Virus record (IMG/VR): IMGVR_UViG_3300034104_004238
Coordinates: 1-28,081 of that record
Direction: 5' to 3' (one strand)
From: a virus
DNA: 28,081 nucleotides
Shown here: positions 11,981 to 27,181 of the stretch, piece after piece
Position numbering within the stretch: the first letter of the stretch is position 1
Layout of the letters: the number at the start of each line of letters is the position of its first letter
Program-made: the position numbers and the translations under genes
The notes under the pieces: model-generated
What the model was told of the DNA's origin: nothing
Seen by the model: only the letters and a program-made list of their open reading frames with translations
Databases searched by the model: none

Positions 11981-12097
11981 TAAATTCAAAATAAAATTCA
12001 AAGCTCGGCAAGCCTCGCAAAAAATAAGAAAACCGGCAACAAAAAAAGAAGCCGGTGCCGACCCCCTACTTGACTTGTCAGCCCCACCCGATAGACT
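11981..12097 (+). promoter_or_regulatory. array unit 1: A-rich spacer and promoter
   Basis: A-rich spacer starting AAATTCAAAATAAAATTC, interrupted by GCTCGGCAAGCCTCGC, then TTGACT (12070-12075), 16-base spacer and TAGACT (12092-12097). No clear 5' hairpin; the leader is only about 15 bases. Confidence 0.75.
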
Positions 12098-12898: not shown

Positions 12899-12910
12899 TT
12901 TCCGCCCGCC

Positions 12911-13037
12911 TAAATTCAAAATAAAAACAAAAATAAGAAGGCAACAAAAAAAGAAAGTCGCCACCCCCACAATACGCTTGACAAAATGTCCTCACCTGTG
13001 GTTAGATTGTCTTGTAGGGCAAATCGACAATCCTACA
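12911..13037 (+). promoter_or_regulatory. array unit 2: A-rich spacer, promoter, 5' hairpin
   Basis: TTGACA (12978-12983), 18-base spacer, TTAGAT (13002-13007). The 5' hairpin pairs TGTAGG (13013-13018) with CCTACA (13032-13037). GACA-AAA-TGTC overlaps the -35. GGAGAAAC follows as ribosome binding site. Confidence 0.78.
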
Positions 13038-13049
13038 TAGGAGAAACAA

Positions 13050-13370
13050 ATGAGCAACAACGAGTTTCAGTTGCCAGAAAACGCAGTAGCAATCACCTCA
13101 AAAAAGGTGAAAGACGCTATCGCTGACTTTGTTCAGGCAAAGGCAGACGAGAAACTAGCAAAAGAACGCAAGGCACAAGCCGAGCAAATTTTGCGAGAGG
13201 CTCTTGCTAAGGCTGGCAAGCAGATTGGTTATGTAGGCAAGACTAAGGCGTTCAGCCTAGTAGCCAGCAAGACCACTTCGTTTGACCGAGAGATGCTGGA
13301 AACTATGTTCCCAGAGGCTTTCCAAGCCACTCTACGGACAACCGAATACGACTACATTAGAACTGCGTAG
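13050..13370 (+). CDS. coiled-coil hypothetical protein
   Basis: 106 residues. A long charged helix (about 18-56, Ala/Lys/Glu rich) is followed by a small domain with FSLVASKTTSFDREMLETMFPEAF and a C-terminal TTEYDYIRTA. It looks like a phage protein of unknown role. Sole gene of its unit; a pseudoknot follows the stop by 12 bases. Confidence 0.72.
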   Translation: MSNNEFQLPENAVAITSKKVKDAIADFVQAKADEKLAKERKAQAEQILREALAKAGKQIGYVGKTKAFSLVASKTTSFDREMLETMFPEAFQATLRTTEYDYIRTA

Positions 13371-13382
13371 TCGCACCAAACC

Positions 13383-13410
13383 CCACCTGAGTAAGTGGTG
13401 AAACTGCTCA
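13383..13410 (+). ncRNA. H-type pseudoknot, copy 2
   Basis: Stem 1 CCAC/GTGG (13383-13386/13395-13398); stem 2 TGAGTA/TGCTCA (13388-13393/13405-13410) with one G-U pair. Linkers C, A and TGAAAC. Confidence 0.72.
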
Positions 13411-13449
13411 CACATCATAGAAATCTCCTTTCTATAAATGGTTGGGCAA

Positions 13450-13492
13450 GGTTGTCTGTCAGGGAGTTATGCTTTCTACCTGACAGGCAACC
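13450..13492 (+). terminator. hairpin terminator of array unit 2
   Basis: 14-bp stem GGTTGTCTGTCAGG (13450-13463) with CCTGACAGGCAACC (13479-13492), one G-U pair; no T run. A smaller hairpin ATAGAAA/TTTCTAT lies just upstream. Confidence 0.65.
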
Positions 13493-13500
13493 GCTACCGC

Positions 13501-13666
13501 TAAATTCAAAATTAAAAGCAAAAAGAATAAGAAAAGCAACCAAAAAAGAAACCGCCGACCCCCAACTCGTTATTGACAAAATGTCGGCACACCGATTAGA
13601 CTTGACTTAGAACCGAGTGAGGTCGAGTAAATACCTCCCCCTCATTTCACTCCCTCACTCGGTTCT
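13501..13666 (+). promoter_or_regulatory. array unit 3: A-rich spacer, promoter, long 5' hairpin
   Basis: TTGACA (13573-13578), 18-base spacer, TAGACT (13597-13602). A perfect 14-bp hairpin AGAACCGAGTGAGG/CCTCACTCGGTTCT (13609-13622/13653-13666) begins at the predicted transcript start. TTGACAAAATGTC as in unit 2. Confidence 0.8.
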
Positions 13667-13688
13667 ACCTAAAATGAGAGGAAAGCAA

Positions 13689-13844
13689 ATGGCAATACAA
13701 TACCGCAAGACATTTCAAGGTGCGTGGGAACTTTACACGAGCGACAAGAACGGCTACCTAGTCTGCCGTCAGTATTTCTTTTACACCAAGCGTGAAGCAA
13801 CGCAGTTGTTTCGTGCGGAAATGAAGAAGATAAACAATGGCTAA
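13689..13844 (+). CDS. small hypothetical basic protein
   Basis: 51 residues (MAIQYRKTFQGAWELYTSDKNGYLV). The start at 13689 lies after the promoter hairpin and ATGAGAGGAAAGC; an upstream in-frame start would sit inside the hairpin. It overlaps the next ATG by 8 bases. Basic and aromatic; unknown family. Confidence 0.65.
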   Translation: MAIQYRKTFQGAWELYTSDKNGYLVCRQYFFYTKREATQLFRAEMKKINNG

Positions 13845-14055
13845 CATTGTGCCTGTAACCGACAAGGTTGGAGATGTAGTTGATTACAACTACTACTGCT
13901 CTAACTTTTGTGCCAAGCAAGACCCGAACTACGCTGGCTGGTTCGGCTGTGTGGAGAACTACTCCACTCCGTTCTGCCAGAACTGCGAAACACCGCTGTT
14001 CTGGATAGATGAAAACACCTACACAACCTATCTAGGGAAAGAGAAAGTAAAATGA
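13837..14055 (+). CDS. small Cys-rich protein
   Basis: 72 residues with C21, C25, C38, C47, C50 (CSNFC ... CQNC), compatible with zinc binding. Translation coupled to both neighbours by overlaps (second overlap ATGA). No family recognised. Confidence 0.68.
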   Translation: MANIVPVTDKVGDVVDYNYYCSNFCAKQDPNYAGWFGCVENYSTPFCQNCETPLFWIDENTYTTYLGKEKVK

Positions 14056-14420
14056 GCGAAACACAAGAAAAGCAGTATGTAACCATTCCGGTCAGCATTG
14101 ACCGCGACCTCCTATGGGAAAGCACATTCGGCGGAGGGTTTGAGTATTCCCCTTGGTGGGGTAGGCTCAAATTCGACAGCGGAGGCGAATGGAACAACTA
14201 CACCACAGGTATCTTCACTATCTCCTGCGAAGACCCAGAGAACGAGCAAGAAATGATTACCAAGACACTAACCATTGACGACTTGGCTCGTGGCTATGGT
14301 ATCGCTCTGCGTGAGAACTACCACCACTGCGGAACCGCTTGGAACTTGGAAGACCCCGACGCTTGCGTTAGCGACGGAATACTCCAACTCGCTTTCTTTG
14401 GCGAACTTATCTACGGATAA
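14052..14420 (+). CDS. hypothetical protein
   Basis: 122 residues, mixed alpha/beta: QYVTIPVSIDRDLLWESTFGG, WNNYTTGIFTISCEDPENEQ, TKTLTIDDLARGYGIAL. Resembles small phage proteins of unknown function, and I cannot name a family. Last gene of unit 3. Confidence 0.68.
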   Translation: MSETQEKQYVTIPVSIDRDLLWESTFGGGFEYSPWWGRLKFDSGGEWNNYTTGIFTISCEDPENEQEMITKTLTIDDLARGYGIALRENYHHCGTAWNLEDPDACVSDGILQLAFFGELIYG

Positions 14421-14434
14421 CTTCTAACGAACGA

Positions 14435-14460
14435 CCCTCAACGAAAGTTGGGGGTTTTTC
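14435..14460 (+). terminator. GAAA-loop intrinsic terminator of unit 3
   Basis: CCCTCAAC-GAAA-GTTGGGGG followed by TTTTT. The motif AACTTCTAACGAA (14419-14431) lies just upstream. Confidence 0.88.
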
Positions 14461-14472
14461 GTTTGTCGAGGA

Positions 14473-14606
14473 AAATTCAAAATTAAAAACCAAAAACAAA
14501 ATAAAAAATAAGAAGGCAAGCAAAAAAGAAATGCCCGCCCCCGACCCTACTTGACCCAACAAGCCGTATGTGGTTGAATTGAACCAGACAGGCAAAACCC
14601 CCTGTC
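14473..14606 (+). promoter_or_regulatory. array unit 4: A-rich spacer, promoter, 5' hairpin
   Basis: TTGACC (14551-14556), 17-base spacer, TTGAAT (14574-14579). 5' hairpin GACAGG/CCTGTC (14587-14592/14601-14606), then GAGGAGAAAA. Confidence 0.8.
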
Positions 14607-14618
14607 GAGGAGAAAACA

Positions 14619-15059
14619 ATGTCAGAAGAAAGCAAGAACCCAGAACTGCTAACCGCAGACGCTACGATTGAGAAACTCACCAACGACTTAGCCGAGGCTA
14701 ACAGCAGAGTAGAGCGTATGGAAGTCAATCGGGACTACTACGCTAACCGAGCCAACAACTACTCAACTGCGATTGACAAAGCCAAAGACTACATCTTTGA
14801 GCAGGTCAAGAACGAGGAACTAGACGCAGAAGACGAAGTTGTAACCAGCCTTGCTGAAATCTTCGGTTGGGAACTAACCACCGAGGTTGAGGCGACCGTT
14901 ACCGCAACATTCCGAGTAACGCTCACTATCCCAATGGGCAAGTCAGCAGACGACCTAGACGGAGAACTCACCGCCGACCTCACCCTTGATTGGGAACGAA
15001 GCCGAGAGGGCTACGACCTTTCGATTGACGACACCGAGGTTGAGTTGGAAATCGACTAG
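14619..15059 (+). CDS. hypothetical coiled-coil plus beta-domain protein
   Basis: 146 residues. The N-terminal half is a probable coiled coil (IEKLTNDLAEANSRVERMEVN). The C-terminal half is beta-rich (TTEVEATVTATFRVTLTIPMG, LTADLTLDWE) and very acidic. Sole gene of unit 4; no family recognised. Confidence 0.7.
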   Translation: MSEESKNPELLTADATIEKLTNDLAEANSRVERMEVNRDYYANRANNYSTAIDKAKDYIFEQVKNEELDAEDEVVTSLAEIFGWELTTEVEATVTATFRVTLTIPMGKSADDLDGELTADLTLDWERSREGYDLSIDDTEVELEID

Positions 15060-15075
15060 CCAAACAAAACCAGAG

Positions 15076-15096
15076 CCAGCCCGAAAGGGCTGGTTT
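15076..15096 (+). terminator. GAAA-loop terminator of unit 4
   Basis: CCAGCCC-GAAA-GGGCTGG followed by TTT. Confidence 0.82.
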
Positions 15097-15111
15097 CTGC
15101 GTTTGGCCCGA

Positions 15112-15233
15112 AAATTCAAAAATTAAAAGCAAAAAGCAAAAATAAGAAAGCCACAAAAGAAAAAACGCCCCGACCCGACCTACTTGACCGACCGCACCAT
15201 TCGTGGTTGAATAGTATTGCGGAACACCCCGCA
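15112..15233 (+). promoter_or_regulatory. array unit 5: A-rich spacer, promoter, 5' hairpin
   Basis: TTGACC (15184-15189), 17-base spacer, TTGAAT (15207-15212). Hairpin TGCGG/CCGCA (15218-15222/15229-15233), then ATGAGGAAAA. Confidence 0.82.
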
Positions 15234-15247
15234 GAAATGAGGAAAAA

Positions 15248-15559
15248 ATGCTACACCCTAGAAACCCAAACCAAATGCCCGACATTGACATTACGCAAGA
15301 CGAACTCAAACAACTTGTAGCGTTCGCTGGCATTATGGCAATCGGTATCCACTACGGCGTTGACCCTAGTGTTTCAGTTGACCACCTACCGAAAGACATT
15401 GAGGAAAACGGCGGTATGCTCGGCTTGATGATGAACACCATCAGAGCAAGTGAGGCAGTTGGCGAACTACTCTCGGAACTCATTGACCGAGCCGAAAAAG
15501 CCGACAACGACAAACTCAACGAGGCTTTTGAGCAAATCGTAACCGAGCAGGAGAACTGA
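15248..15559 (+). CDS. hypothetical helical protein
   Basis: 103 residues. Residues about 12-40 (DIDITQDELKQLVAFAGIMAIGIHYGV) and the rest are mostly helical, ending in an acidic amphipathic helix. A second in-frame ATG 36 bases downstream has no better ribosome binding site, so the first is kept. Overlaps the next start by one base. Confidence 0.66.
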   Translation: MLHPRNPNQMPDIDITQDELKQLVAFAGIMAIGIHYGVDPSVSVDHLPKDIEENGGMLGLMMNTIRASEAVGELLSELIDRAEKADNDKLNEAFEQIVTEQEN

Positions 15560-15909
15560 TGAACAAGGACTACCGCAACGGACAGCAAGAGGTTCTAGTC
15601 GCTATTGCCGAGTATCTCGGCAATGGCGGTGAACTCAACGCCGAGAACTTTGAGCAGTTTGCCGAAACTTACGACCGCACCGAGGACAACCCATACAGCC
15701 GATACTCCCTAGACACTCTAAGAGAATTGGCTGGTCAGTATTCATTCTTACTGAGCAATGGCAGAACCACTATCGGTAACGGAGAAGACCTCGGTCAAGC
15801 CTACGAACTTGTCTGCGAGGCTATGGAAGACCGAGAAGACACCGACCATTGTAAGCACGGCTGGTTCAAATACCAAGAGGGTTTGTGCCACGCTTGCGAA
15901 ATGGAGTAG
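15559..15909 (+). CDS. hypothetical protein with C-terminal Cys/His cluster
   Basis: 116 residues in a TGATG overlap with the upstream gene. Helical and acidic body; the last 20 residues contain CKHGWFKYQEGLCHAC, a possible zinc site of CxH...CxxC type. Unknown function. Confidence 0.68.
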   Translation: MNKDYRNGQQEVLVAIAEYLGNGGELNAENFEQFAETYDRTEDNPYSRYSLDTLRELAGQYSFLLSNGRTTIGNGEDLGQAYELVCEAMEDREDTDHCKHGWFKYQEGLCHACEME

Positions 15910-15911
15910 CA

Positions 15912-15943
15912 GAGAACCCCTGACTTCGGTCGGGGGTTTTCTC
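15912..15943 (+). terminator. TTCG-loop terminator of unit 5
   Basis: GAGAACCCCTGAC-TTCG-GTCGGGGGTTTTCTC, a long stem closed by a UUCG tetraloop with a T run in the 3' arm. Confidence 0.88.
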
Positions 15944-15947
15944 GCTC

Positions 15948-16071
15948 TAAATTCAAAATTCAAAAGCAAAACAAAAAATAAGATCAAACAAAAGAAAAAA
16001 CGCCCGCCCACCACCGCTTGACGAACCTCGCCATTCGTGACAAACTAGACTTGCGGACACAACCAACCGCA
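15948..16071 (+). promoter_or_regulatory. array unit 6: A-rich spacer, promoter, 5' hairpin
   Basis: TTGACG (16018-16023), 17-base spacer, CAAACT (16041-16046). Hairpin TGCGG/CCGCA (16052-16056/16067-16071), then CAGGAGAAAG. Confidence 0.8.
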
Positions 16072-16083
16072 CAGGAGAAAGAA

Positions 16084-16584
16084 ATGACCGAAACACAGAA
16101 ATACACTTGCACGATTACCAGCGACTGCACTTGTGAAGTCTATGATGAGGAAACCGACAGCACCTTACTAGACGAATACGGTGACCCTGCCAGACCAGAG
16201 TATTGCTTCGGCGACTGTTACAACGAGGCAGTCTACGACTTCACCGACAACTTCCTACCGATGTGGCTCGATTACCACAAATTGGACAAAGATGGAAAAG
16301 TCCTACTATTCGCTGGCGGTATCGGATGGAACAAAGTTAGCGCAACAGGTTTCGTTGATGTGTCAGACATCCACAAGGTTATGCAGATAGATGGTGACTT
16401 CCGCAATGTGTTCACTATCGAAGGTGGAGAACTGTATGCCATTCGCTACTCGCACGATGAGCCGGTCGGCTCAGGCAAGTGGAACTTCCAGCCAGCAGGA
16501 ATCTGTGACCGATGCGGTGACGGTATACCAGCCGATGTCTACGAAGATGAAAACGGTATCTGTGCAGACTGCAAAGACTACTAA
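16084..16584 (+). CDS. hypothetical protein with C-terminal zinc ribbon
   Basis: 166 residues; the start at 16084 follows GGAGAAAGAA, whereas the longer frame would begin inside the -35. N-terminal Cys-rich stretch (CTITSDCTCEVYDEE, CFGDC), central beta region, and a final zinc ribbon CDRCGDGIPADVYEDENGIC with CADC. Several candidate metal sites. No known family. Confidence 0.7.
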   Translation: MTETQKYTCTITSDCTCEVYDEETDSTLLDEYGDPARPEYCFGDCYNEAVYDFTDNFLPMWLDYHKLDKDGKVLLFAGGIGWNKVSATGFVDVSDIHKVMQIDGDFRNVFTIEGGELYAIRYSHDEPVGSGKWNFQPAGICDRCGDGIPADVYEDENGICADCKDY

Positions 16585-16597
16585 CCGCTATGCCGAA

Positions 16598-16615
16598 CCT
16601 CACCGCAAGGTGAGG
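16598..16615 (+). terminator. GCAA-loop hairpin of unit 6
   Basis: CCTCACC-GCAA-GGTGAGG, GNRA-closed, no T run. Confidence 0.7.
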
Positions 16616-16628
16616 CAAGGCTGGCCGG

Positions 16629-16762
16629 TAAATTCAAAATAAAAAAACCAAAAAGAAATAAAAATAAGAAAGCAAACAAAGAAGAAAGCTGGCGACCCCC
16701 CACCTACTTGACTCATCTACCGCTGCGTGGTTGAATAGTAGTGCGGAGCCAACCAACCGCAC
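16629..16762 (+). promoter_or_regulatory. array unit 7: A-rich spacer, promoter, 5' hairpin
   Basis: TTGACT (16708-16713), 17-base spacer, TTGAAT (16731-16736). Hairpin GTGCGG/CCGCAC (16741-16746/16757-16762), then GAGGAGAAAAA. Confidence 0.82.
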
Positions 16763-16773
16763 GAGGAGAAAAA

Positions 16774-16905
16774 ATGTCACAATTTGAAGTAGAAGTTACT
16801 GGACTCATCATCGTTGAGGCCGACACCAAGGGTGAGGCAATCGAGCAAGCCGACAAGGAACTTGCCGAAGTCCTACACCACTGGGACATCAACGGAGTGA
16901 ACTAA
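16774..16905 (+). CDS. 43-residue hypothetical protein
   Basis: Starts MSQFEVEVTGLIIVEADTKG, one beta strand pair then a helix (EAIEQADKELAEVLHHW). Well-placed GAGGAGAAAAA ribosome binding site and a TAATG overlap with the next gene support it despite its size. Confidence 0.68.
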   Translation: MSQFEVEVTGLIIVEADTKGEAIEQADKELAEVLHHWDINGVN

Positions 16906-17243
16906 TGGCAAGGGAGCGTATGTTCGGGTATGACCCGACTTGCGACAGTTGCTCGGTTTACTATGACGGTGACCCCCTAACACTTCTGGAAGTAAACAAT
17001 CCAGTCCCAGACACCGTTCGCGACATCAGCAAGATTAGAACCCTAATCAACTTCTGGCTATGCGGTGACTGCGCCCCAGAGTATCCAAACGGAGCAAAGG
17101 ACTTCTTCGTTGATAGTTACTTCACCGAAGACGAACTCTACCTCTGTATCTACTGTAAAGGCTTTATTGACGAAGAAACCCGAGAGGAGTTTGACGACAC
17201 AGATGTCTGTCTGACTTGCTCCCCTCGAACCGTCGAAGTCTGA
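16905..17243 (+). CDS. double zinc-ribbon protein
   Basis: 112 residues with eight Cys in four CxxC pairs: C13/C16, C53/C56, C81/C84, C102/C105, enough for two zinc sites. Translationally coupled to the 43-residue ORF. Function unknown; nucleic-acid binding is plausible. A pseudoknot begins 10 bases after the stop. Confidence 0.75.
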   Translation: MARERMFGYDPTCDSCSVYYDGDPLTLLEVNNPVPDTVRDISKIRTLINFWLCGDCAPEYPNGAKDFFVDSYFTEDELYLCIYCKGFIDEETREEFDDTDVCLTCSPRTVEV

Positions 17244-17253
17244 GTTTCCCTCA

Positions 17254-17280
17254 CCACCTGAGTATGTGGCTAAACTACTC
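17254..17280 (+). ncRNA. H-type pseudoknot, copy 3
   Basis: Stem 1 CCAC/GTGG (17254-17257/17266-17269); stem 2 GAGTA/TACTC (17260-17264/17276-17280). Linkers 2, 1 and 6 (CTAAAC). Compared with copy 1, a C-G pair of stem 2 has become T-A. Confidence 0.72.
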
Positions 17281-17292
17281 TCCCCTCTTTTC

Positions 17293-17416
17293 TAAATTGA
17301 AATTGAAAAAGAAAAAAGAATAAGAGCAAACCAAAAAAGAAAAGTCGCCACCGACCCGCTACTTGACCTCTACGGCCATAGATGAGAGGATTGTTATGCG
17401 GGCCCAACCCCCCGCA
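17293..17416 (+). promoter_or_regulatory. array unit 8: divergent A-rich spacer, promoter, 5' hairpin
   Basis: Spacer starts TAAATTGAAATTG rather than the usual form. TTGACC (17363-17368), 17-base spacer, GAGGAT (17386-17391). Hairpin TGCGGG/CCCGCA (17397-17402/17411-17416). Confidence 0.78.
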
Positions 17417-17428
17417 GAGGAGAAACAA

Positions 17429-17821
17429 ATGTCCCTAGATTGGAACGCAACTCGCGTCGCTAACTTCAAAGAAGGCGACGAGGAGTGGAAAGAGAACGTC
17501 GCTTACTTTTGCTTTACTCTAATGGCAATCGGCGTCGGCTCGGTTACCGAGAAGAACCTCGGCGACATCTACACCCGTATCAAAATCCTAAACGCCTTGA
17601 ACGGCCCGCTTCGTTACCACTACGACGAGGACACCAAGACCAAGACCCCCGTTTATGACTTTGACTTCATCCAGAGCGTAGTCGGTTACGGAACCAACGT
17701 CAGCAACGAAACGTTCGGCCAATGGATAAAGCGTATCGGTAACCGCGAAATCCTAGACAACCAGCGCTACTTCGAGAAAGCCTTAGAGAAAGCCAAAGGC
17801 CTAGAAGCCGAAGCGGTTTAG
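17429..17821 (+). CDS. hypothetical helical protein
   Basis: 130 residues from 17429, after GAGGAGAAACAA. Looks like a soluble helical protein: EEWKENVAYFCFTLMAIGVGSVTEKNLGDIYTR, then NETFGQWIKRIGNREILDN. Richer in C and G at third codon positions than its neighbours. No family recognised. Confidence 0.7.
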   Translation: MSLDWNATRVANFKEGDEEWKENVAYFCFTLMAIGVGSVTEKNLGDIYTRIKILNALNGPLRYHYDEDTKTKTPVYDFDFIQSVVGYGTNVSNETFGQWIKRIGNREILDNQRYFEKALEKAKGLEAEAV

Positions 17822-17828
17822 TCGAGAG

Positions 17829-17854
17829 CCACCTAGCCAGAAATGGTTAGGTGG
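17829..17854 (+). terminator. GAAA-loop hairpin of unit 8
   Basis: CCACCTAGCCA-GAAA-TGGTTAGGTGG, 11 bp with one G-U pair. Confidence 0.78.
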
Positions 17855-17868
17855 CCTCACCCCCGTTC

Positions 17869-18015
17869 TAAATTCAAAAATTAAAAACGCCTCGCAAGCT
17901 CGGCTAAAAATAAGAAAGAATAAGAAAGCCACAAAAAAGAAATGCCCCCGACCCCCCGGTTCTTGACCACGGCAGCCGTTTTTGTTAGGCTGGTTATGCG
18001 GGCCAACCAACCGCA
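17869..18015 (+). promoter_or_regulatory. array unit 9: A-rich spacer with GC insert, promoter, 5' hairpin
   Basis: Spacer holds GCCTCGCAAGCTCGGC. TTGACC (17963-17968), 17-base spacer, TAGGCT (17986-17991). Hairpin TGCGG/CCGCA (17997-18001/18011-18015). Confidence 0.82.
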
Positions 18016-18026
18016 GAGGAGAAATC

Positions 18027-18326
18027 GTGGAACTACTAACTAATGAAATCAAAGAGCAACTACCAGCGCTCTACTCAACAGACGGAAAGGACTTGACCGA
18101 AGTAAAAGCAGTAGTCAAGTTTTTCTGCCCCTGGTCGAGCTGGACTTGGTATGCCGCCGAGTTTGACGGAGAGGACACCTTCTTCGGTCTTGTCGATGGC
18201 TTCGAGCGAGAACTAGGTTACTTCTCGCTGAAAGAGTTGAGCGACCTCACAGGTCCTCTGGGTCTCAAAATCGAAAGAGATTTGCACTGGGACAAGACCG
18301 ACCTCGCAACGCTAATGCACGAGTAG
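18027..18326 (+). CDS. DUF2958-family protein
   Basis: 99 residues from GTG at 18027, with GAGGAGAAA correctly spaced. The string KFFCPWSSWTWYAAEFDGED, then FGLVDGFERELGYFSLKEL and GPLGLKIERDLHW, is characteristic of DUF2958, a family carried by plasmids, integrative elements and phages with no known biochemical role. Length is normal for the family. Confidence 0.85.
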   Translation: MELLTNEIKEQLPALYSTDGKDLTEVKAVVKFFCPWSSWTWYAAEFDGEDTFFGLVDGFERELGYFSLKELSDLTGPLGLKIERDLHWDKTDLATLMHE

Positions 18327-18343
18327 CAAGCCGAAACACCAAG

Positions 18344-18361
18344 CCCGCCTGAAAAGGCGGG
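18344..18361 (+). terminator. GAAA-loop hairpin of unit 9
   Basis: CCCGCCT-GAAA-AGGCGGG, 7 bp; no T run. Confidence 0.75.
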
Positions 18362-18375
18362 TGAGGTGCGGCTCG

Positions 18376-18491
18376 TAAATTCAAAATTAAAAAGCAAAAA
18401 TAAGATCAAGCAAAAAAGAAAACCGCGCCGCCCCAACCTACTTGCCAATGCCACCCCTACCGGCTAGGCTAGAAGTGCGGACATCACCGCA
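18376..18491 (+). promoter_or_regulatory. array unit 10: A-rich spacer, promoter, 5' hairpin
   Basis: TTGCCA (18442-18447), 17-base spacer, TAGGCT (18465-18470). Hairpin TGCGG/CCGCA (18476-18480/18487-18491), then ATGAGGAGAAA. Confidence 0.78.
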
Positions 18492-18505
18492 GAAATGAGG
18501 AGAAA

Positions 18506-19147
18506 ATGTTTCGAGTATGGAACGACGGAAATCCAGAGAACAAACTATTTGTCGGCTACCGAAGTGATTTAGCAAAAATGCCAACTCACAAGGTCTTAGC
18601 ACTACCAGAATACGGACAGGTTCTAATGCCTTACGATTTTGTAAAGTATGAATACCCTCTACCGAGAAACTACGGACAGACAAACTCGCAATACAATCGC
18701 ACCGCCGAGCCTGTAAAAATCACGCTTGTTGGTAATGACCCTGAGTGGAGAACCGCAGTTGCGAATTGGACAGAGAGCGAGTTGTATTTCCACCAGCCCT
18801 TCGGTTTGGAGTTGTTACTGCGCAAGCCACTCTTACAGGTTGGTAGAAGTATGCGGTTACACTACGCAAGGTTCTTACTGCCTCTGCCTACCGACCACGT
18901 TTATCACAGGTGGTATTCCAAGAACGGAGAGCCTGTTTACGACAAACGAGAAAGCCCGTTCTTTCTTGCCTACTATGTAGGACAAGGCGAAAACAAGTTG
19001 TTCGTGGACGAGGTGGATGTGGAGTGTGCTTACAATGCCAATCCGTCAAGTTGGAACGCAAGCGGTCGCAGAGCCTACACTATCCCTGCCGATTGGTTGA
19101 GCAATCGCATAGACGAGAACGCTCACAAATACGACCTGTTCGCCTAG
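18506..19147 (+). CDS. hypothetical protein, largest of the array
   Basis: 213 residues, no recognised family. Motifs: MFRVWNDGNPENKLFVGYRSD, LPEYGQVLMPYDFVKYEYPLP, FHQPFGLELLLRKPL and SGRRAYTIPADWLSNRIDEN. Rich in Tyr, Pro and Leu, soluble. Sole gene of its unit. Confidence 0.72.
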   Translation: MFRVWNDGNPENKLFVGYRSDLAKMPTHKVLALPEYGQVLMPYDFVKYEYPLPRNYGQTNSQYNRTAEPVKITLVGNDPEWRTAVANWTESELYFHQPFGLELLLRKPLLQVGRSMRLHYARFLLPLPTDHVYHRWYSKNGEPVYDKRESPFFLAYYVGQGENKLFVDEVDVECAYNANPSSWNASGRRAYTIPADWLSNRIDENAHKYDLFA

Positions 19148-19154
19148 CACCGAG

Positions 19155-19181
19155 AGCCTTGCCCGAAAGGGTGAGGCTTTT
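19155..19181 (+). terminator. GAAA-loop intrinsic terminator of unit 10
   Basis: AGCCTTGCCC-GAAA-GGGTGAGGCT followed by TTT; two G-U pairs. Confidence 0.85.
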
Positions 19182-19191
19182 CGGCTGGCCG

Positions 19192-19312
19192 AAAATTCAA
19201 AACAAAAAACAAAAAACAAAAATAAGGCAAACCAAAAAAGAAAGCTCCCTGACCTCGACCTACTTGACCACCACCGCCGTCAGGTGTAGGCTGGAAGGGC
19301 GGACACCTCCGC
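19192..19312 (+). promoter_or_regulatory. array unit 11: A-rich spacer, promoter, 5' hairpin
   Basis: TTGACC (19264-19269), 17-base spacer, TAGGCT (19287-19292). Hairpin GCGGA/TCCGC (19299-19303/19308-19312). Confidence 0.8.
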
Positions 19313-19328
19313 GGAAATGAGGAGAAAA

Positions 19329-19718
19329 TTGCTTACTGAATACGAATTCAACAAAATCATTGAGGCACTTGGACACGCCGAGCGTAACTCGCACCCACTC
19401 AATCGTTCGACTTGGCAGGTTCTCGCCAGACGAGCGAAAGAGGAACTGCCTCTACTGATGACAACAACCACCGCTAGTTGCCAATGCGAGGATAGACCTT
19501 GTTGCTCTTGCGACGCAGATGTTTATCAGCCAGCCGACAGCACCTACGACAGCAACGACCCAAACAACTACGACCCAGAGGAACACTTCGGTCGTATGGA
19601 ACAGCAAGAGTTAGAGCGTGAGGCTTGCTCTGTTTGTTCTACCTACTTTGAGGACACCGACAACGAGGATGATGTTGTTCAAGGTTTCCACCTAGATTGT
19701 GCCGCCTACCCCTCATAA
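19329..19718 (+). CDS. ALGHAERN-motif protein, paralogue A, Cys-rich
   Basis: 129 residues. A TTG start at 19329 is preferred because GAGGAGAAA precedes it and the N-terminus MLTEYEFNKIIEALGHAERN then lines up with MLSDFDYNRIVQALGHAERN of the product at 21721. After the shared 40 residues it diverges: C51, C53, C58, C59, C61 and C100, C103, H121, C124 suggest two metal sites. Function unknown. Confidence 0.72.
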   Translation: MLTEYEFNKIIEALGHAERNSHPLNRSTWQVLARRAKEELPLLMTTTTASCQCEDRPCCSCDADVYQPADSTYDSNDPNNYDPEEHFGRMEQQELEREACSVCSTYFEDTDNEDDVVQGFHLDCAAYPS

Positions 19719-19726
19719 AAGGAGAA

Positions 19727-19750
19727 CCCCTTAGCCGAAAGGCTAGGGGG
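19727..19750 (+). terminator. GAAA-loop terminator of unit 11
   Basis: CCCCTTAGCC-GAAA-GGCTAGGGGG, flanked by GGAGAA/AACTCTCC that extends the stem. Confidence 0.82.
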
Positions 19751-19761
19751 AACTCTCCGTC

Positions 19762-19906
19762 TAAATTCAAAATTCAAAAACAAAAATAAGATCAATCCAA
19801 AAAAGAAAGCTCCGCCGCCACCCTACTTGACCTAGCACCGCTTTCGTGAGAGGATTATCTTGTCCAGCCCGCAAGGGGAAGCCCTCTACGCAAAGAGAGG
19901 AGGAGA
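19762..19906 (+). promoter_or_regulatory. array unit 12: A-rich spacer, promoter, atypical leader
   Basis: TTGACC (19827-19832), 17-base spacer, GAGGAT (19850-19855). The leader lacks the TGCGG-type stem; CTTG/CAAG near the start and CCTCT/AGAGG by the ribosome binding site could pair, the latter partly hiding the AGGAGGAG. Confidence 0.72.
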
Positions 19907-19908
19907 AA

Positions 19909-20109
19909 ATGACCAAGTTCGTTTTTGCTAAAACCAACATCGGTGGTTTTCTTCGGGTAGATACAAGCGAGTTCAAGTTCGCTAAAATCTACACCGCAGT
20001 AGCCAAGCACAACGACCTCGTTTGGATTGACGAGTTCGACGCTGTGGATTTCCTAACCGAAATCCGCGACCGCGGAGTGAAGTTTGAGGTAACTCAAATC
20101 AACCTCTAA
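19909..20109 (+). CDS. small hypothetical protein
   Basis: 66 residues (MTKFVFAKTNIGGFLRVDTSEFKFAKIY), alpha/beta. Start at 19909 follows AGGAGGAGAAA. A pseudoknot begins five bases after the stop and a second one follows further on before the next ORF. Confidence 0.68.
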   Translation: MTKFVFAKTNIGGFLRVDTSEFKFAKIYTAVAKHNDLVWIDEFDAVDFLTEIRDRGVKFEVTQINL

Positions 20110-20114
20110 GTGCC

Positions 20115-20143
20115 ACAACCTGAGCAAGTTGTAAAAAGGCTCA
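20115..20143 (+). ncRNA. H-type pseudoknot, copy 4
   Basis: Stem 1 ACAAC/GTTGT (20115-20119/20128-20132); stem 2 TGAGC/GCTCA (20121-20125/20139-20143). Linkers C, AA and AAAAAG. Confidence 0.74.
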
Positions 20144-20239
20144 AGAGTTGTGAGTGCGGTAAACAAGGAAACTCTCTGATGGTGTAGCGCAAGCCTAAAA
20201 ACGATTGCGTAGGAAAGTAACTCTTCGGACTACTGACCG
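20144..20239 (+). other. non-coding stretch between two pseudoknots
   Basis: No ORF of note. It contains pairable GAGTT/AACTC arms around 20146-20176 and a CGCAA/TTGCG pair near 20189-20212. The whole 20110-20294 interval may be one structured RNA. Confidence 0.4.
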
Positions 20240-20268
20240 ACAACCCGAGCAAGTTGTAAAAAGGCTCA
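20240..20268 (+). ncRNA. H-type pseudoknot, copy 5
   Basis: Stem 1 ACAAC/GTTGT (20240-20244/20253-20257); stem 2 GAGC/GCTC (20247-20250/20264-20267). Near-copy of copy 4, ending 26 bases before the next ATG. Confidence 0.7.
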
Positions 20269-20294
20269 CCCACCCAAAATAGAAAAGAGAAAAA

Positions 20295-20444
20295 ATGGCA
20301 GAAATAGTTTTCACACTCGCCAGACTATCCGCCGAAAGCACCGTTCCTGTCGAACTACTAGCCGAGAACATTGACCTTGTTCGGCTTGTTCGTGACGGAA
20401 CAGATTTCGAAACCTTGCTGTCGTTCATCAACGAAAATTGGTAG
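20295..20444 (+). CDS. 49-residue hypothetical protein
   Basis: Begins MAEIVFTLARLSAESTVPVE; ends LLSFINENW. Preceded by AAAAGAGAAAAA and by pseudoknot copy 5. No own A-rich promoter unit, so it probably shares the 19909 transcript, with the structured interval between them. Confidence 0.6.
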   Translation: MAEIVFTLARLSAESTVPVELLAENIDLVRLVRDGTDFETLLSFINENW

Positions 20445-20449
20445 CAGGT

Positions 20450-20475
20450 AGCCCTCTCCGAAAGGAGGGGGCTTT
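20450..20475 (+). terminator. GAAA-loop intrinsic terminator of unit 12
   Basis: AGCCCTCTCC-GAAA-GGAGGGGGCT then TT. Confidence 0.85.
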
Positions 20476-20480
20476 CGCCA

Positions 20481-20610
20481 ATTAAAATTCAAAATTAAAA
20501 GCAAAAATAAGAAAAAATAAGATCAAGCAAAAAAGAAAACTCCACCGCCACCCTGCTTGACGAATGTCACCCTGCTCGGTTAGACTTGAATCGTGGGCAG
20601 ACAAACCACA
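20481..20610 (+). promoter_or_regulatory. array unit 13: A-rich spacer, promoter, short 5' hairpin
   Basis: TTGACG (20557-20562), 17-base spacer, TTAGAC (20580-20585). Hairpin GTGG/CCAC (20593-20596/20606-20609), then AAAGGAG. Confidence 0.76.
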
Positions 20611-20622
20611 AAGGAGATTGGA

Positions 20623-20757
20623 ATGAACGACCGTATCGCTTATCTGGTCAAGGAACTCTACAGCCGTTACCACGCCCGAGAGATTGGTGCCGAGGAAACG
20701 CTAGACCTGCTAGAGATAGCACTCAACAAAATACTAAACGCCGAAAACGAGGAGTAA
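20623..20757 (+). CDS. 44-residue helical protein
   Basis: MNDRIAYLVKELYSRYHARE..., a likely two-helix peptide. Good AAAGGAG spacing; three bases separate its stop from the next ATG. Unknown function. Confidence 0.66.
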   Translation: MNDRIAYLVKELYSRYHAREIGAEETLDLLEIALNKILNAENEE

Positions 20758-20760
20758 AAA

Positions 20761-21051
20761 ATGGGAACTGAATTACACGAAATCATTAGCAACTACGGGT
20801 TTCCCGTATTCGCTAGCGAAGAATTTGATTCGCTGATTACTTGGAACGGCTCTAACACCTTTCTATTCTGGGCACCGCTAGCCGAAGACGCTCGCAATGG
20901 CGAGTGGCTAGCTGGTGGCTACCGCCGACCAAAGCGCTGGGAGAACACCGACCTAGACACCTTCAACGGAATCACCGACATCAAAGAAGCAGAGAAGTAT
21001 GCCAAGAAGTGGCACGAATCTCTGCTCGTCGATACTGACGAAGAAGAGTAA
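20761..21051 (+). CDS. hypothetical protein
   Basis: 96 residues: MGTELHEIISNYGFPVFASEE, GSNTFLFWAPLAEDARNGEWL, then a helix KEAEKYAKKWHESLL and an acidic tail. Downstream of the 44-residue gene, whose GAGGAGTAAAAA serves as ribosome binding site. No family recognised. Confidence 0.7.
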   Translation: MGTELHEIISNYGFPVFASEEFDSLITWNGSNTFLFWAPLAEDARNGEWLAGGYRRPKRWENTDLDTFNGITDIKEAEKYAKKWHESLLVDTDEEE

Positions 21052-21061
21052 CCCCAAGACC

Positions 21062-21099
21062 CCCGACCTGCCAGACTTCCCCTAGCTGGCAGGCTCGGG
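21062..21099 (+). terminator. hairpin terminator of unit 13
   Basis: CCTGCCAG/CTGGCAGG (21067-21074/21086-21093), extended by CCCGA/TCGGG across a bulge. Confidence 0.75.
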
Positions 21100-21108
21100 C
21101 TTGCGGTC

Positions 21109-21257
21109 TAAATTCAAAATTCAAAAACAAAAATAAGATCAAGCAAAAAAGAAAGCACCGCGGGCTACCTGCTTGACTACGCCCACCACTTCGGGCAGAA
21201 TAGAACTACAACTGAATAGCAGAGCCGGTTGCCCATCCCCCCGACAGCCGGCTCTGC
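21109..21257 (+). promoter_or_regulatory. array unit 14: A-rich spacer, promoter, long 5' hairpin
   Basis: TTGACT (21173-21178), 17-base spacer, CAGAAT (21196-21201). Then CTACAACTGAATAGC and a 10-bp hairpin GCAGAGCCGG/CCGGCTCTGC (21219-21228/21248-21257). The ribosome binding site AAGGAG lies 27 bases further. Confidence 0.8.
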
Positions 21258-21292
21258 ACCCTAAACCCAGCCACCCAACCTAAGGAGTAGAG

Positions 21293-21538
21293 ATGCAAAT
21301 CCAATCCACCACCAAAATCGAAGAAGGTCGCTACCAGATTGCTAGCAAGCCTTGTCCAGACTGCAACGCCGTTGTTACTCTGGAGATTGATGGGTCTTCG
21401 CTTTACCTTGCCAATCAAGGTGCGAGCGTTCAGCAGGTTCTTCCAAACCAGACTGCCGATGTCAGAGAGCGTTTCGTATCTGGCTACTGCGCTGATTGCT
21501 GGAACCTAATCTTCGCCGACGACGACGAAGAAGAGTAG
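21293..21538 (+). CDS. small zinc-ribbon protein
   Basis: 81 residues with C21/C24 (KPCPDC) and C66/C69 (GYCADCW), ending in an acidic DDDEEE tail. Middle part beta then helical. Likely zinc binding; partner unknown. AAGGAGTAGAG precedes the ATG. Confidence 0.75.
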   Translation: MQIQSTTKIEEGRYQIASKPCPDCNAVVTLEIDGSSLYLANQGASVQQVLPNQTADVRERFVSGYCADCWNLIFADDDEEE

Positions 21539-21549
21539 CCCCTAGCCGA

Positions 21550-21574
21550 CCCCTAGCCGAAAGGCTGGGGGTTT
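21550..21574 (+). terminator. GAAA-loop intrinsic terminator of unit 14
   Basis: CCCCTAGCC-GAAA-GGCTGGGGG then TTT. Confidence 0.86.
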
Positions 21575-21587
21575 CGGCGTTGCGGCG

Positions 21588-21707
21588 AAAATTAAAACAA
21601 ACCAAAAACCAAAAATAAGAAAACAGCAAAAAAGAAAACACAACGCCGCAACCTGCTTGACCACGGGACCCTGCTCGGCTAAACTGAAAGAGCGGTAAGA
21701 CCCCCGC
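21588..21707 (+). promoter_or_regulatory. array unit 15: A-rich spacer, promoter, 5' hairpin
   Basis: TTGACC (21657-21662), 17-base spacer, TAAACT (21680-21685). Hairpin GCGG/CCGC (21692-21695/21704-21707), then AAAGGAG. Confidence 0.78.
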
Positions 21708-21720
21708 AAAGGAGATGACT

Positions 21721-22083
21721 ATGTTGTCAGATTTCGATTACAATCGGATTGTCCAAGCACTAGGACACGCCGAGCGCAACGCAAGCCAGAGCGAAAAGTC
21801 CAACTGGCGTTCCGTTCTACGGAACTTCGAAACAGAATGCTCGACCACCGCAAAGCCAACCGAGGAACTACTTGATGATGACTTCAAGCCACTAACCCTT
21901 GACGAACTAATCGTCAAAGTCCGTAAGTCAATGGACAGCACCCGAGAGCAACGCAAGGGCTTTATTGCCGAAGGCGATAAGTCAATGAAAGACTATGCCG
22001 ATGGTTGGATGCACGCTCTCACTTTTGTTCTCGCCAACGCCGACCAGAAGTGGTGGAACGAAACAGAAAAGCTGAACAGGTAA
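21721..22083 (+). CDS. ALGHAERN-motif protein, paralogue B
   Basis: 120 residues. ATG at 21721 chosen because GGAG sits 6 bases upstream; the ATG at 21715 abuts the GGAG. N-terminal MLSDFDYNRIVQALGHAERN is shared with the product at 19329. The rest differs: helical, TLDELIVKVRKSMDSTREQRKG, and YADGWMHALTFVLANADQKW. No Cys cluster as in paralogue A. Function unknown. Confidence 0.74.
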   Translation: MLSDFDYNRIVQALGHAERNASQSEKSNWRSVLRNFETECSTTAKPTEELLDDDFKPLTLDELIVKVRKSMDSTREQRKGFIAEGDKSMKDYADGWMHALTFVLANADQKWWNETEKLNR

Positions 22084-22091
22084 GCACCGCC

Positions 22092-22116
22092 GACCCCCTG
22101 CCGAAAGGCAGGGGTC
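22092..22116 (+). terminator. GAAA-loop hairpin of unit 15
   Basis: GACCCCCTGCC-GAAA-GGCAGGGGTC, 10 bp with one bulged C. Confidence 0.8.
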
Positions 22117-22128
22117 AAGGCGCAGCCG

Positions 22129-22238
22129 AAAATTAAAACAAAACAAAAATAAGAACAGCCAAAAAAGAAACACACGCGCCCGGTGGCTTGACCTAGCAAG
22201 CCACCTGTGGCAGACTAGCAGTGTGGCAAACCACCACA
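22129..22238 (+). promoter_or_regulatory. array unit 16: A-rich spacer, promoter, 5' hairpin
   Basis: TTGACC (22188-22193), 17-base spacer, CAGACT (22211-22216). Hairpin TGTGG/CCACA (22222-22226/22234-22238): a paired base change from TGCGG/CCGCA. AAAGGAGG follows. Confidence 0.82.
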
Positions 22239-22251
22239 AAGGAGGAAACAA

Positions 22252-22407
22252 ATGATAAAAGTCCTAGCGTGGATACTACGCAGAGTGAGCGCCTCGGCGT
22301 TCGCGCTGGCGCAGAACGCGTCATACGCAACCTACTTACTAGAAAGGAAAGCAAGTGCGGAACGAAACAACGACACAAATCGAAACCTATTTGAGTCAAA
22401 CCTCTAA
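22252..22407 (+). CDS. 51-residue hypothetical protein
   Basis: MIKVLAWILRRVSASAFALAQ..., an amphipathic or membrane-active N-terminal helix and a polar tail. Excellent AAAGGAGG ribosome binding site. Its 3' third overlaps another ORF in a different frame. Confidence 0.62.
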   Translation: MIKVLAWILRRVSASAFALAQNASYATYLLERKASAERNNDTNRNLFESNL

Positions 22408-22486
22408 CATAGCGCCAACCCAACTGAAACAAATCGCCTCAACCCTGGGCTACCTCATCGAGAACCTAAGACCAGCGACAGCGTAA
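22355..22486 (+). CDS. 43-residue overlapping ORF
   Basis: GTG start with GAAAGGAAAG five bases upstream; frame differs from the 22252 ORF it overlaps by 53 bases. Product (V)RNETTTQIETYLSQTSNIA... is polar and helical. It ends just before the terminator, which supports it, but at this size the call is tentative. Confidence 0.5.
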   Translation: MRNETTTQIETYLSQTSNIAPTQLKQIASTLGYLIENLRPATA

Positions 22487-22493
22487 CAAGTGT

Positions 22494-22526
22494 GCCGACC
22501 TAGACAATCCCCTAGTCTAGGTCGGC
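22494..22526 (+). terminator. hairpin terminator of unit 16
   Basis: 12-bp perfect stem GCCGACCTAGAC/GTCTAGGTCGGC (22494-22505/22515-22526). Confidence 0.78.
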
Positions 22527-22536
22527 CTTGCCGCTA

Positions 22537-22673
22537 TAAATTCAAAAGCAAAAATAAGAAGCAGCTAAAAAAGAAATGACGACCCTGCCGCCTACTTGAC
22601 TAAACCTCCGTATCGTGGCAAACTAGACCTACAACTGAATAGCGGAGTAGGTGTCCCCCTACACCTACTCCGC
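22537..22673 (+). promoter_or_regulatory. array unit 17: A-rich spacer, promoter, long 5' hairpin
   Basis: TTGACT (22596-22601), 17-base spacer, CAAACT (22619-22624). Then CTACAACTGAATAGC as in unit 14 and a perfect 13-bp hairpin GCGGAGTAGGTGT/ACACCTACTCCGC (22642-22654/22661-22673). Confidence 0.84.
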
Positions 22674-25746: not shown

Positions 25747-25778
25747 CAGCTATTTATACACATGACTGGAGTTGAACT
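25715..25778 (+). repeat. two copies of GACTGGAGTTGAACT
   Basis: Exact copies at 25715-25729 and 25764-25778. The second supplies the GGAG ribosome binding site of the terminase gene. Further copies lie at 27189-27202 and 27331-27344. Confidence 0.8.
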
Positions 25779-25780
25779 CG

Positions 25781-27181
25781 ATGGCTAAAAGCCTGATGGA
25801 ACAGATATCTTTGATGACGCCAGAGCAGCAGGCTCTGGCTCTTCAAGGCATGGACCCTGATGTCTTGCTTTGGGACTGGTCTGTTTGGGGCCGGCCGGAG
25901 CAGCAAGCACCTGAAGGTGACTGGGCCATCTGGGCCTACATTGCTGGTCGTGGTGCTGGCAAGACCAGGACTGCTGCTGAGTGGGTAAGAGAGCAGGCCA
26001 AGTACACAACAGAGGGACAGCGTCGCTTCGCTCTTGTTGCACGTACTGCAGCAGACGTTCGTGACGTTATCGTTGAAGGTGAGTCAGGTATCATGAATGT
26101 TACCCCACCTTCTGAACGTCCACTCTATGAACCTTCCAAAAGAAGGTTGACCTGGCCCAATGGCAACACTGCCACCTGCTTCACAGCAGATGAGCCTGAC
26201 TCACTTCGTGGTCCTCAGTTCACCCATGCTTGGGGAGATGAGATTGCTGCCTGGCGTCAGACCCCTGACGCAGCAGGCATGACTGCCTTTGACAACCTTC
26301 GTGTTGGTACTCGTCTTGGTGCACATCCCAAGATCATGGTTACCACTACACCTAAGAGAGTGCCTCTACTCTACAAACTCATAGAGGAAGCTAAGACAGG
26401 TCGAGTAGTAATCACTCGTGGTTCTACTCTCGACAACTCAGGTAACCTATCAGGTGCCTACCTTGATGCAATCACAGGTGTGTACGCAGGTACTCGCCTT
26501 GCTGCTCAAGAGCTTTATGGAGAGATGCTTGATGATGTCGAAGGCGCACTCTGGACTGAGGAGCTTATCGAATCTCATAGAGCACCTTTCATGCCTCAAG
26601 GTACTCCACTTCGTATCATTGGAGTAGACCCTTCTGTTGCTGAGAATCCTCGTGATGAGTGTGGCATTGTTGTCTGTGCTGCAACCTCAGATCGCGATCT
26701 GTATCGTCGCGAAGCTTGGGTACTGGAAGATGCTTCCATACTAGGTTCACCAGAGAAATGGGCCAATGAAGTTGTTCGTATGGCTCGTAAATGGGGTTGC
26801 CCTGTTGTAGCAGAAGTGAATCAAGGTGGAGCCCTTGTTCGCAATGCTATCAATGCTATTGATCCCAACATCAAAGTGTTGGAGGTCCATAGCAAGTATG
26901 GTAAGGCACTTCGTGCTGAGCCTGTTACCCTTGCTTATGAGCAGGGACGTATTCATCACGTTGGTTACCACCCTGATCTCGAGAGTCAGATGTACTCCTG
27001 GGTCCCGGGAGAAGGCAAGTCCCCTGACAGAGTAGATGCTCTTGTACATGCAATGACAGCTCTACTCATCAAACCTCCAATGGGTTTCTCCGGAGGAAAG
27101 ATTACTGCTAAGTCAATGGGCTCTAGACGCATTGATAATGGCAAACCTGGTCGTTCAGGTGGAGTTTTCAGAGTTCGCTAA
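25781..27181 (+). CDS. terminase large subunit
   Basis: 466 residues; ATP-driven motor and nuclease that packages phage DNA. The ATG at 25781 is preferred over TTG at 25772, which lies within the ribosome binding repeat. N-terminal ATPase: Walker A GRGAGKT (56-62), Walker B with D153/E154 in FTHAWGDEIAAW, coupling motif TTTP (188-191). C-terminal RNase-H-like nuclease: D283 in IIGVDPSV, and SPDRVDALVHA near the end. Length is normal. More T-rich codons than the 3-23 kb genes. No portal gene follows in the window. Confidence 0.95.
   Translation: MAKSLMEQISLMTPEQQALALQGMDPDVLLWDWSVWGRPEQQAPEGDWAIWAYIAGRGAGKTRTAAEWVREQAKYTTEGQRRFALVARTAADVRDVIVEGESGIMNVTPPSERPLYEPSKRRLTWPNGNTATCFTADEPDSLRGPQFTHAWGDEIAAWRQTPDAAGMTAFDNLRVGTRLGAHPKIMVTTTPKRVPLLYKLIEEAKTGRVVITRGSTLDNSGNLSGAYLDAITGVYAGTRLAAQELYGEMLDDVEGALWTEELIESHRAPFMPQGTPLRIIGVDPSVAENPRDECGIVVCAATSDRDLYRREAWVLEDASILGSPEKWANEVVRMARKWGCPVVAEVNQGGALVRNAINAIDPNIKVLEVHSKYGKALRAEPVTLAYEQGRIHHVGYHPDLESQMYSWVPGEGKSPDRVDALVHAMTALLIKPPMGFSGGKITAKSMGSRRIDNGKPGRSGGVFRVR

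Follow-up and report, generated by a model that had tools for sequence, protein, structure and literature searches.

Variable stem-loops at the predicted 5' ends of array transcripts in one clade of uncultured phages

We investigated an array of short gene units in IMG/VR virus record IMGVR_UViG_3300034104_004238, a linear record of 28,081 bases that was analyzed at its full length and is referred to here as the window. The array spans approximately 12.0 to 22.7 kb of the window, and the leader behind nearly every one of its promoters carries a stem-loop that differs in sequence from unit to unit, keeps its pairing, and begins at or next to the predicted first transcribed base. Sequence comparison with related contigs supports the position of these hairpins, their pairing, covariation and specificity for the transcribed strand, as well as their restriction to a single phage clade. 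Our best inference as to function, to which we assign a probability of roughly 55%, is that a sequence-independent stem-loop at the 5' terminus would shield the triphosphate end of each mRNA from attack of the RppH, RNase E or RNase J type.

Hairpins in the array leaders

The units usually follow one order, namely, an A-rich element, TTGAC, a spacer of 16-19 nt, a TAGACT-like -10, the leader, an AGGAG-type Shine-Dalgarno sequence (SD) and the start codon (Table 1). The A-rich element preceding the -35 contains 29-41 A per 60 nt in units 2-17, compared with 7-22 at the non-array promoters of the window. As an internal control, the TTGAC promoters located upstream of the array (for example, at 4042, 5735, 7649 and 11174) have neither the A-rich element nor hairpins.

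Offsets were counted from the base after the -10, taken as 0, which places the expected +1 at offset 6. In units 2-17, the main hairpin starts at offset 4-7 in 13 of 16 leaders and at offset 17 in two (units 14 and 17). A first-pass annotation of this DNA had placed the hairpins about 4-8 bases after the -10 at nearly every array transcript; all the stems it quoted are present where it had located them, and the general statement holds once unit 13, with a hairpin that it did not list, is added and units 1 and 12, which have no hairpin at +1, are taken out. For the 15 window leaders of the main scoring set, 12 had the stem at offset 4-7, against 1.9 expected from shuffles. By a looser count, requiring only a stem of at least 4 bp at this offset, 15 of 16 window leaders qualified, whereas 3000 dinucleotide shuffles averaged 3.3 and peaked at 10, and random window positions of the same lengths gave at most 8 of 16. 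The summed stem score of the 16 leaders, 229, likewise exceeded anything obtained in 3000 dinucleotide shuffles (mean 37, maximum 132).

We extended the analysis to a set of ten contigs, the window and nine relatives, in which promoters were identified without using hairpins and the leaders were scored afterwards. Seven relatives supplied array leaders; one contig (G004) yielded no unit under the strict rule, and another (G009) was counted outside the array class. In these held-out relatives, which had not been used to form the idea, the best stem started at offset 4-7 in 73 of 89 array leaders, with 11.1 expected, and at offset 17 or later in 7 more. Pooling the window with the seven relatives gave 85 of 104 (about 13 expected from shuffles), a count inflated by orthologous near-copies, given that the contigs are related and their leaders not fully independent; the window alone is still significant. 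The median minimum free energy was -7.6 kcal/mol (z -2.7) in the 104 array leaders and -0.9 kcal/mol (z 0.0) in a comparison set from the same contigs, namely, 57 other TTGAC promoters. This set probably includes chance promoter matches inside genes, which means that array leaders are being contrasted with everything promoter-like. Across the array hairpins, stems comprise 4-15 bp, commonly 4-7 bp, and loops 3-39 nt. These results confirm that the hairpins are real.

The A-rich elements display a pattern of their own. In the window array and in L015 and L016, each subclade carries its own, nearly invariant version (for instance, AAAAAATTAATAAAAACAAAAGAAAACAACTAGAAGATTAC in L015), which suggests either cassette copying within genomes or a strong UP-like element.

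Table 1. Array units, other leaders and genes of the window, with related leaders in other contigs (window coordinates unless a contig is named)
Feature	Position	Strand	Promoter	Hairpin or leader	Start codon	Remarks
A-rich element, example	12907-12956	+				precedes -35
Unit 1	12070-12097	+	TTGACT-16-TAGACT, -35 at 12070	no 5' hairpin		exception; A-rich upstream
Unit 2	12978-13037	+	12978-13008	13013-13037 TGTAGG/CCTACA	13050	SD from 13039
Unit 3	13573-13667	+	13573-13602	13608-13667, long (15 bp)	13689
Unit 4	14551-14606	+	14551-14579	14587-14606 GACAGG/CCTGTC	14619
Unit 5	15184-15233	+	15184-15212	15218-15233 TGCGG/CCGCA	15248
Unit 6	16018-16071	+	16018-16046	16052-16071 TGCGG/CCGCA	16084
Unit 7	16708-16762	+	16708-16736	16741-16762 GTGCGG/CCGCAC	16774
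Unit 8	17363-17416	+	17363-17391	17397-17416 TGCGGG/CCCGCA	17429
Unit 9	17963-18015	+	17963-17991	17997-18015 TGCGG/CCGCA	18027 (GTG)
Unit 10	18442-18491	+	18442-18470 (TTGCCA-17-TAGGCT)	18476-18491 TGCGG/CCGCA	18506
Unit 11	19264-19312	+	19264-19292	19299-19312 GCGGA/TCCGC
Unit 12	19827-19908	+	19827-19855	no +1 hairpin; other conserved leader (GTCCAGCCCGCAAGGGGAAGCC..AGAGGAGGAG)	19909
Unit 13	20557-20609	+	20557-20586	20593-20609 GTGG/CCAC	20623
Unit 14	21173-21257	+	21173-21201	unpaired ACAACTGAATA 21208-21218; long hairpin 21219-21257	21293	predicted +1 A 21208
Unit 15	21657-21707	+	21657-21685	21692-21707 GCGG/CCGC	21721
Unit 16	22188-22238	+	22188-22216	22222-22238 TGTGG/CCACA	22252
Unit 17	22596-22673	+	22596-22624	unpaired ACAACTGAATA 22631-22641; long hairpin 22642-22673 (13 bp)	22711
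Second leader type	21208-21257, 22631-22673; L009 5956-6002, 8052-8104; L014 1976, 5344; L015 2853; L017 4155; L018 6988; L020 5935
Leader of 66-aa gene	19862-19908; G001 30804; G002 3767; G003 6259
Endolysin-like gene	1789-2565
AAA-ATPase gene	4609-5655
TerL gene	25772-27181

Pairing, transcribed strand and register

The two arms of the array stems change together. In an arm-swap comparison, bases +1 to +4 were matched by their reverse complement within their own leader in 71 of 101 cases, compared to a mean of 21.5 with permuted tails; for the window alone, the figures were 11 of 15 and 4.9 (p 0.0004), and for the held-out leaders, 60 of 86 and 17.6, with a maximum of 33 in 20,000 permutations. 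Two small contigs taken singly (G002 and G003) did not reach significance. Between orthologous genes, stems have been wholly replaced and are still paired, as in family 1 with GTGTGG/CCACAC, GGGTAG/CTACCC and GCGAACG/CGTTCGC, and in an alignment of five unit 2 orthologs, 100% of the cells were paired, with two pairs changed on both sides in a compensatory manner. Irregular pairs inside the stems or at their transcribed outer edge were G-U in 12 cases and A-C in 2 (p 0.006, from 14 events only); at the loop-facing position, the counts were 7 and 10. A preference for G-U over A-C on the transcribed strand marks an RNA feature because a duplex DNA site would not distinguish the two. Taken together, the arm-swap, ortholog, unit 2 and G-U results point to selection on RNA pairing, in agreement with the earlier claim that pairing is kept while sequence varies, for which the covariation analysis, including the alignment of the second leader type described below, has now been carried out. 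On this comparative evidence, selection acts on the RNA structure of the transcribed strand, not on the sequence, and no stem or loop sequence common to the whole clade was found.

The same observations bear on a DNA-level alternative, in which the inverted repeats would serve a DNA-binding protein as operator or activator sites, a role proposed for the ESAS of cluster K mycobacteriophages. The SAS and ESAS are repeated inverted-repeat elements near the translation starts of small non-structural actinophage genes (PMC3203893), and the array repeats, too, recur beside promoters and start codons of such genes. However, departures in the ESAS arms generally do not support RNA pairing, which led their discoverers to favor DNA-binding sites (PMC3203893), whereas the array arms vary between units yet stay complementary, and their stems hold G-U but hardly any A-C. 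Tested against the arm-swap result and the G-U versus A-C bias, the operator explanation is disfavored, and we give it very little credence. The elements themselves also differ. The array leaders carry an AGGAG-type SD, with no 13-bp GGGATAGGAGCCC at the start codon, and this SAS motif is not the repeated unit; unlike the imperfect 17-bp inverted repeats of the ESAS, which have a consensus and arms that are not kept complementary, the array hairpins have no clade-wide arm consensus and maintain complementarity.

The position of the stems relative to the promoter is sharply defined. Among the array leaders, 79% have a G and 96% some purine at offset 6, and 66% have a T and 83% some pyrimidine at offset 5; stems begin at offset 5 in 44 leaders, at 6 in 32 and at 7 in 9. 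When the stem position was slid along the leaders, 77 of 104 paired at the right register, compared to 14-18 after a shift of 4 nt either way. The start codon lies about 33 nt downstream of the predicted +1. The usual start-site pattern, with -1 a pyrimidine and +1 a purine, coincides with the base of the stem and, together with the sharp register, indicates that the first transcribed base of the array mRNAs is probably paired, with start sites predicted from sequence. The placement of a structure at or near the first base in the first-pass annotation is borne out to this extent; it fails for units 14 and 17, where 11 unpaired nucleotides come first. In three exceptional leaders of relatives (G007 20682, G007 27628 and L015 6240), the 5' arm of a GTAAGCA hairpin lies ahead of the predicted +1, beginning only 1-2 nt past the -10; in these leaders, either transcription starts elsewhere or the hairpin does not form.

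The strict register to the promoter, along with the GYRRR bias of the initially transcribed sequence, is also what might be seen if an early RNA hairpin in this region aided promoter escape or prevented backtracking or R-loops. Such a role would not require a stem beginning at +1, and long hairpins such as that of unit 3, closing no earlier than after 30-60 nt, serve equally in the array; we regard an effect on transcription initiation as very unlikely.

Function of the 5' hairpins

Under the end-protection model, each array unit would form its own small transcription unit, in which an A-rich upstream element is followed by a host sigma-A-like promoter (TTGAC-17-TAnnnT). Transcription would start on the purine at the base of the stem-loop, pairing the first nucleotide of the mRNA, and the hairpin would keep the 5'-triphosphate end out of the single-stranded state. 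The paired end would, in turn, slow RppH-type removal of pyrophosphate as well as any RNase E or RNase J attack that depends on the 5' end, and the short phage mRNAs would live longer as a result; units 14 and 17, with their unpaired tails, would represent a separate leader type with another role. Protection needs only a base-paired 5' end, whatever its sequence, in agreement with the free turnover of stems, and a stem of 4-15 bp at +1, of any sequence, in short units with their own promoters fits this function. We infer the actual start sites, the effect on decay and the enzyme.

Emory, Bouvet and Belasco (1992), along with related work, reportedly described stabilizing stem-loops at the 5' termini of bacterial mRNAs such as ompA and papA. 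As in those mRNAs (reviewed in PMC3997798), the array leaders carry a sequence-independent stem-loop at the mRNA 5' end, upstream of the SD. Unlike ompA and papA, which are single host mRNAs, the hairpins reported here, known from sequence only, are found in nearly every unit of a phage array and of its relatives, in exact register with the promoter. Two features expected from ompA, papA and ermC are apparent, the first being a stem-loop within a few nucleotides of the predicted transcript 5' end, and the second, in the form of evolutionary conservation, a constraint on pairing rather than sequence. RppH and RNase E both require the 5' end to be single-stranded, and mRNAs of E. coli and Bacillus are stabilized by 5' structure; in Bacillus, hairpins at or near the 5' end stabilize long downstream regions (PMC3997798). 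Protection from 5' decay, also suggested in the first-pass annotation, agrees with what this review says of the biochemistry of RppH, RNase E and RNase J (PMC3997798).

Several observations weigh against end protection. The hairpin is missing from some array leaders (unit 12 of the window, G008 45472 and G010 51510), and in units 14 and 17, the predicted mRNA opens with the 11-nt unpaired ACAACTGAATA tail, followed by a 13-bp stem. Within a subclade, the loops resemble one another, with GGATACAACCA in G001-G003 and GGAAAGTATCC in G006 and G007, a likeness that would be superfluous for pure end protection and that shared descent would also produce. In Mycolicibacterium smegmatis, the response of mRNA half-life to RNase E depletion was uncorrelated with predicted structure near 5' ends (PMC10641625). 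Furthermore, the decay enzymes that these mRNAs would meet depend on the host.

A hairpin beside the SD might instead be a translation element that keeps the SD and start codon free or aids 30S loading, with any effects on decay being secondary. The stem ends 0-1 nt ahead of the SD in 31 of 91 hairpins, resembling a compact leader. However, the SD has a median predicted probability of being unpaired of 0.51 in array leaders, as opposed to 0.61 at other promoters of the same contigs, and the open ribosome binding site that had been singled out earlier finds no support as a special feature of the array. Moreover, the fixed distance is that from stem to promoter, while the gap between stem and SD varies from 0 to 89 nt with the stem staying at +1. 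With the SD no more open than elsewhere and its distance from the stem loose, a translation role is less likely than end protection, and we consider it unlikely overall.

A further alternative is recognition. The transcripts would be marked, antiterminated or timed by whatever reads the hairpin, either an RNA-binding protein of phage or host or, as with the put RNA of HK022, the RNA polymerase. N4 early promoters contain hairpins in promoter DNA, and the put RNAs of HK022 are 5' antiterminator hairpins consisting of two specific stem-loops. The array resembles both in having phage hairpins at or near promoters or transcript 5' ends, but those of N4 are located upstream of +1 and recognized in the form of DNA, and put comprises two specific stem-loops, whereas each array leader has one variable hairpin downstream of +1. 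The loop likeness within subclades leaves room for a reader protein, and the trait is confined to one TerL clade. Against recognition, the clade lacks any general stem or loop sequence, with stem and loop lengths varying widely, the units are short and have a promoter each, and no candidate RNA-binding protein was identified. A factor reading sequence would have had to re-adapt in each subclade, which makes the earlier suggestion that the hairpins mark phage mRNAs the weaker one, and we hold recognition to be quite improbable.

Tentatively, and with the odds against it, the +1 hairpin could be a standard part of a promoter cassette that makes array mRNAs selectively stable or recognized, with subclade-specific loops, and the second leader type could be a separate regulatory RNA for a few mRNAs. 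If so, the whole set of array mRNAs would be selectively stable or recognized in the infected cell. The hairpins, kept in register with +1 across phages with unrelated stem sequences, offer dozens of independent natural variants for probing the relationship between 5'-end structure and mRNA life in actinobacteria, a group in which the rules are unsettled, as well as a simple, sequence-free marker for predicting the transcription starts of uncultured phages that can be checked in metatranscriptomes.

Other known structures were compared with the array leaders. Transcripts from T7 late promoters, such as that with the gene 10 leader, fold at +1. The array shares with this leader a phage mRNA that opens with a +1 hairpin before the SD, but T7 relies on an RNA polymerase of its own and on a near-constant sequence, in contrast to the host-type promoters and variable, covarying stems of the array. 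A T7-type late leader was rejected, the promoters being of the TTGAC-17-TAnnnT form and the initial sequences variable. Intrinsic terminators or attenuators were rejected as well: there is no T run, the hairpins are followed by the SD or by A/C-rich sequence, and a terminator scan of the + strand lists no +1 hairpin. Searching Rfam produced no match at the gathering score and no convincing weak match, and the open-access literature, a body that leaves many journals outside its coverage, contained no report of such a hairpin array in phages. Single uses of 5' stem-loops are known; their presence behind nearly all the promoters of an array appears to be new.

Other leaders, distribution and kinship

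Judging from its alignment, the leader of units 14 and 17 is a structured RNA in its own right rather than a 5'-terminal hairpin. Its ACAACUGAAUA tail follows the consensus AYAACWRAAUA, with a variant, ATAACAAAATA, in L018. In an alignment of seven such leaders from six phages, 98% of the cells were paired and 11 of 13 pairs were changed on both sides; none of 500 shuffles scored as high on any measure. A covariance model built from the seven found further members, with weaker scores, only in array-clade contigs (L020/G010, L014, L017 and a second one in L009), and a 14-base pattern scan of IMG/VR for the motif of these units returned mostly chance matches. This leader type, often with a C-rich loop and a C-rich stretch after the stem, occurs once or twice per genome and precedes unrelated genes encoding zinc-ribbon-like, helix-turn-helix-like and membrane proteins. 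No sequence complementary to the ACAACTGAATA tail was found elsewhere in the window.

Yet another leader, GTCCAGCCCGCAAGGGGAAGCC(C)TCT...AGAGGAGGAG, has no +1 hairpin and lies ahead of the same 66-aa gene in four phages. Its CCTCT could pair with an AGAGG that overlaps the SD, and it may therefore be a cis-regulatory RNA; it has no Rfam match. In G007, the contig of L017, two leaders (19978 and 22788) ahead of unrelated genes have long 5' hairpins with a common loop-side sequence, AAGTCTGCGGGAACAG.

A TerL tree of 82 rows groups the 13 labeled as array bearers in one clade (support 99/80), implying one change, with L019 labeled as a bearer although its contig, G009, holds only few such leaders. 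On this tree, the +1 hairpin array marks one TerL clade. Outside it, stems at 96 strict promoters were sporadic, starting at offset 4-7 in 14, at 0-3 in 3 and at 8-11 in 9, and the scanned stretches of DSL-LC01, Pumpernickel and Forza contained no +1 hairpin arrays. Between 22 and 44 kb, DSL-LC01 (L141) carries approximately 28 copies of another promoter type, TTCTAAAG...TTATAATAGAATCA, ahead of small genes; a stem at offset 4-7 accompanies 2 of these copies.

The window itself gave no megablast match among the 50,697 phage records of INPHARED, and many relatives are present in IMG/VR. Its TerL shares 77% identity with the TerL of Actinomycetia phage DSL-LC01, a metagenome assembly from a lake, and about 60% with those of Microbacterium phages. 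By this kinship, the hosts are likely freshwater actinobacteria; a TerL search of GTDB genomes found no relative and provided no host assignment. The protein encoded at 18506-19147, used as a query, retrieved no relatives by that method, and 195-aa homologs were nonetheless found in the contigs. At the contig end (27640-28081), the window contains a long degenerate G-rich repeat (GGGTCAGGGTCAGGGCTAGGG...); it could represent a terminal repeat, a low-complexity repeat or a quadruplex former.

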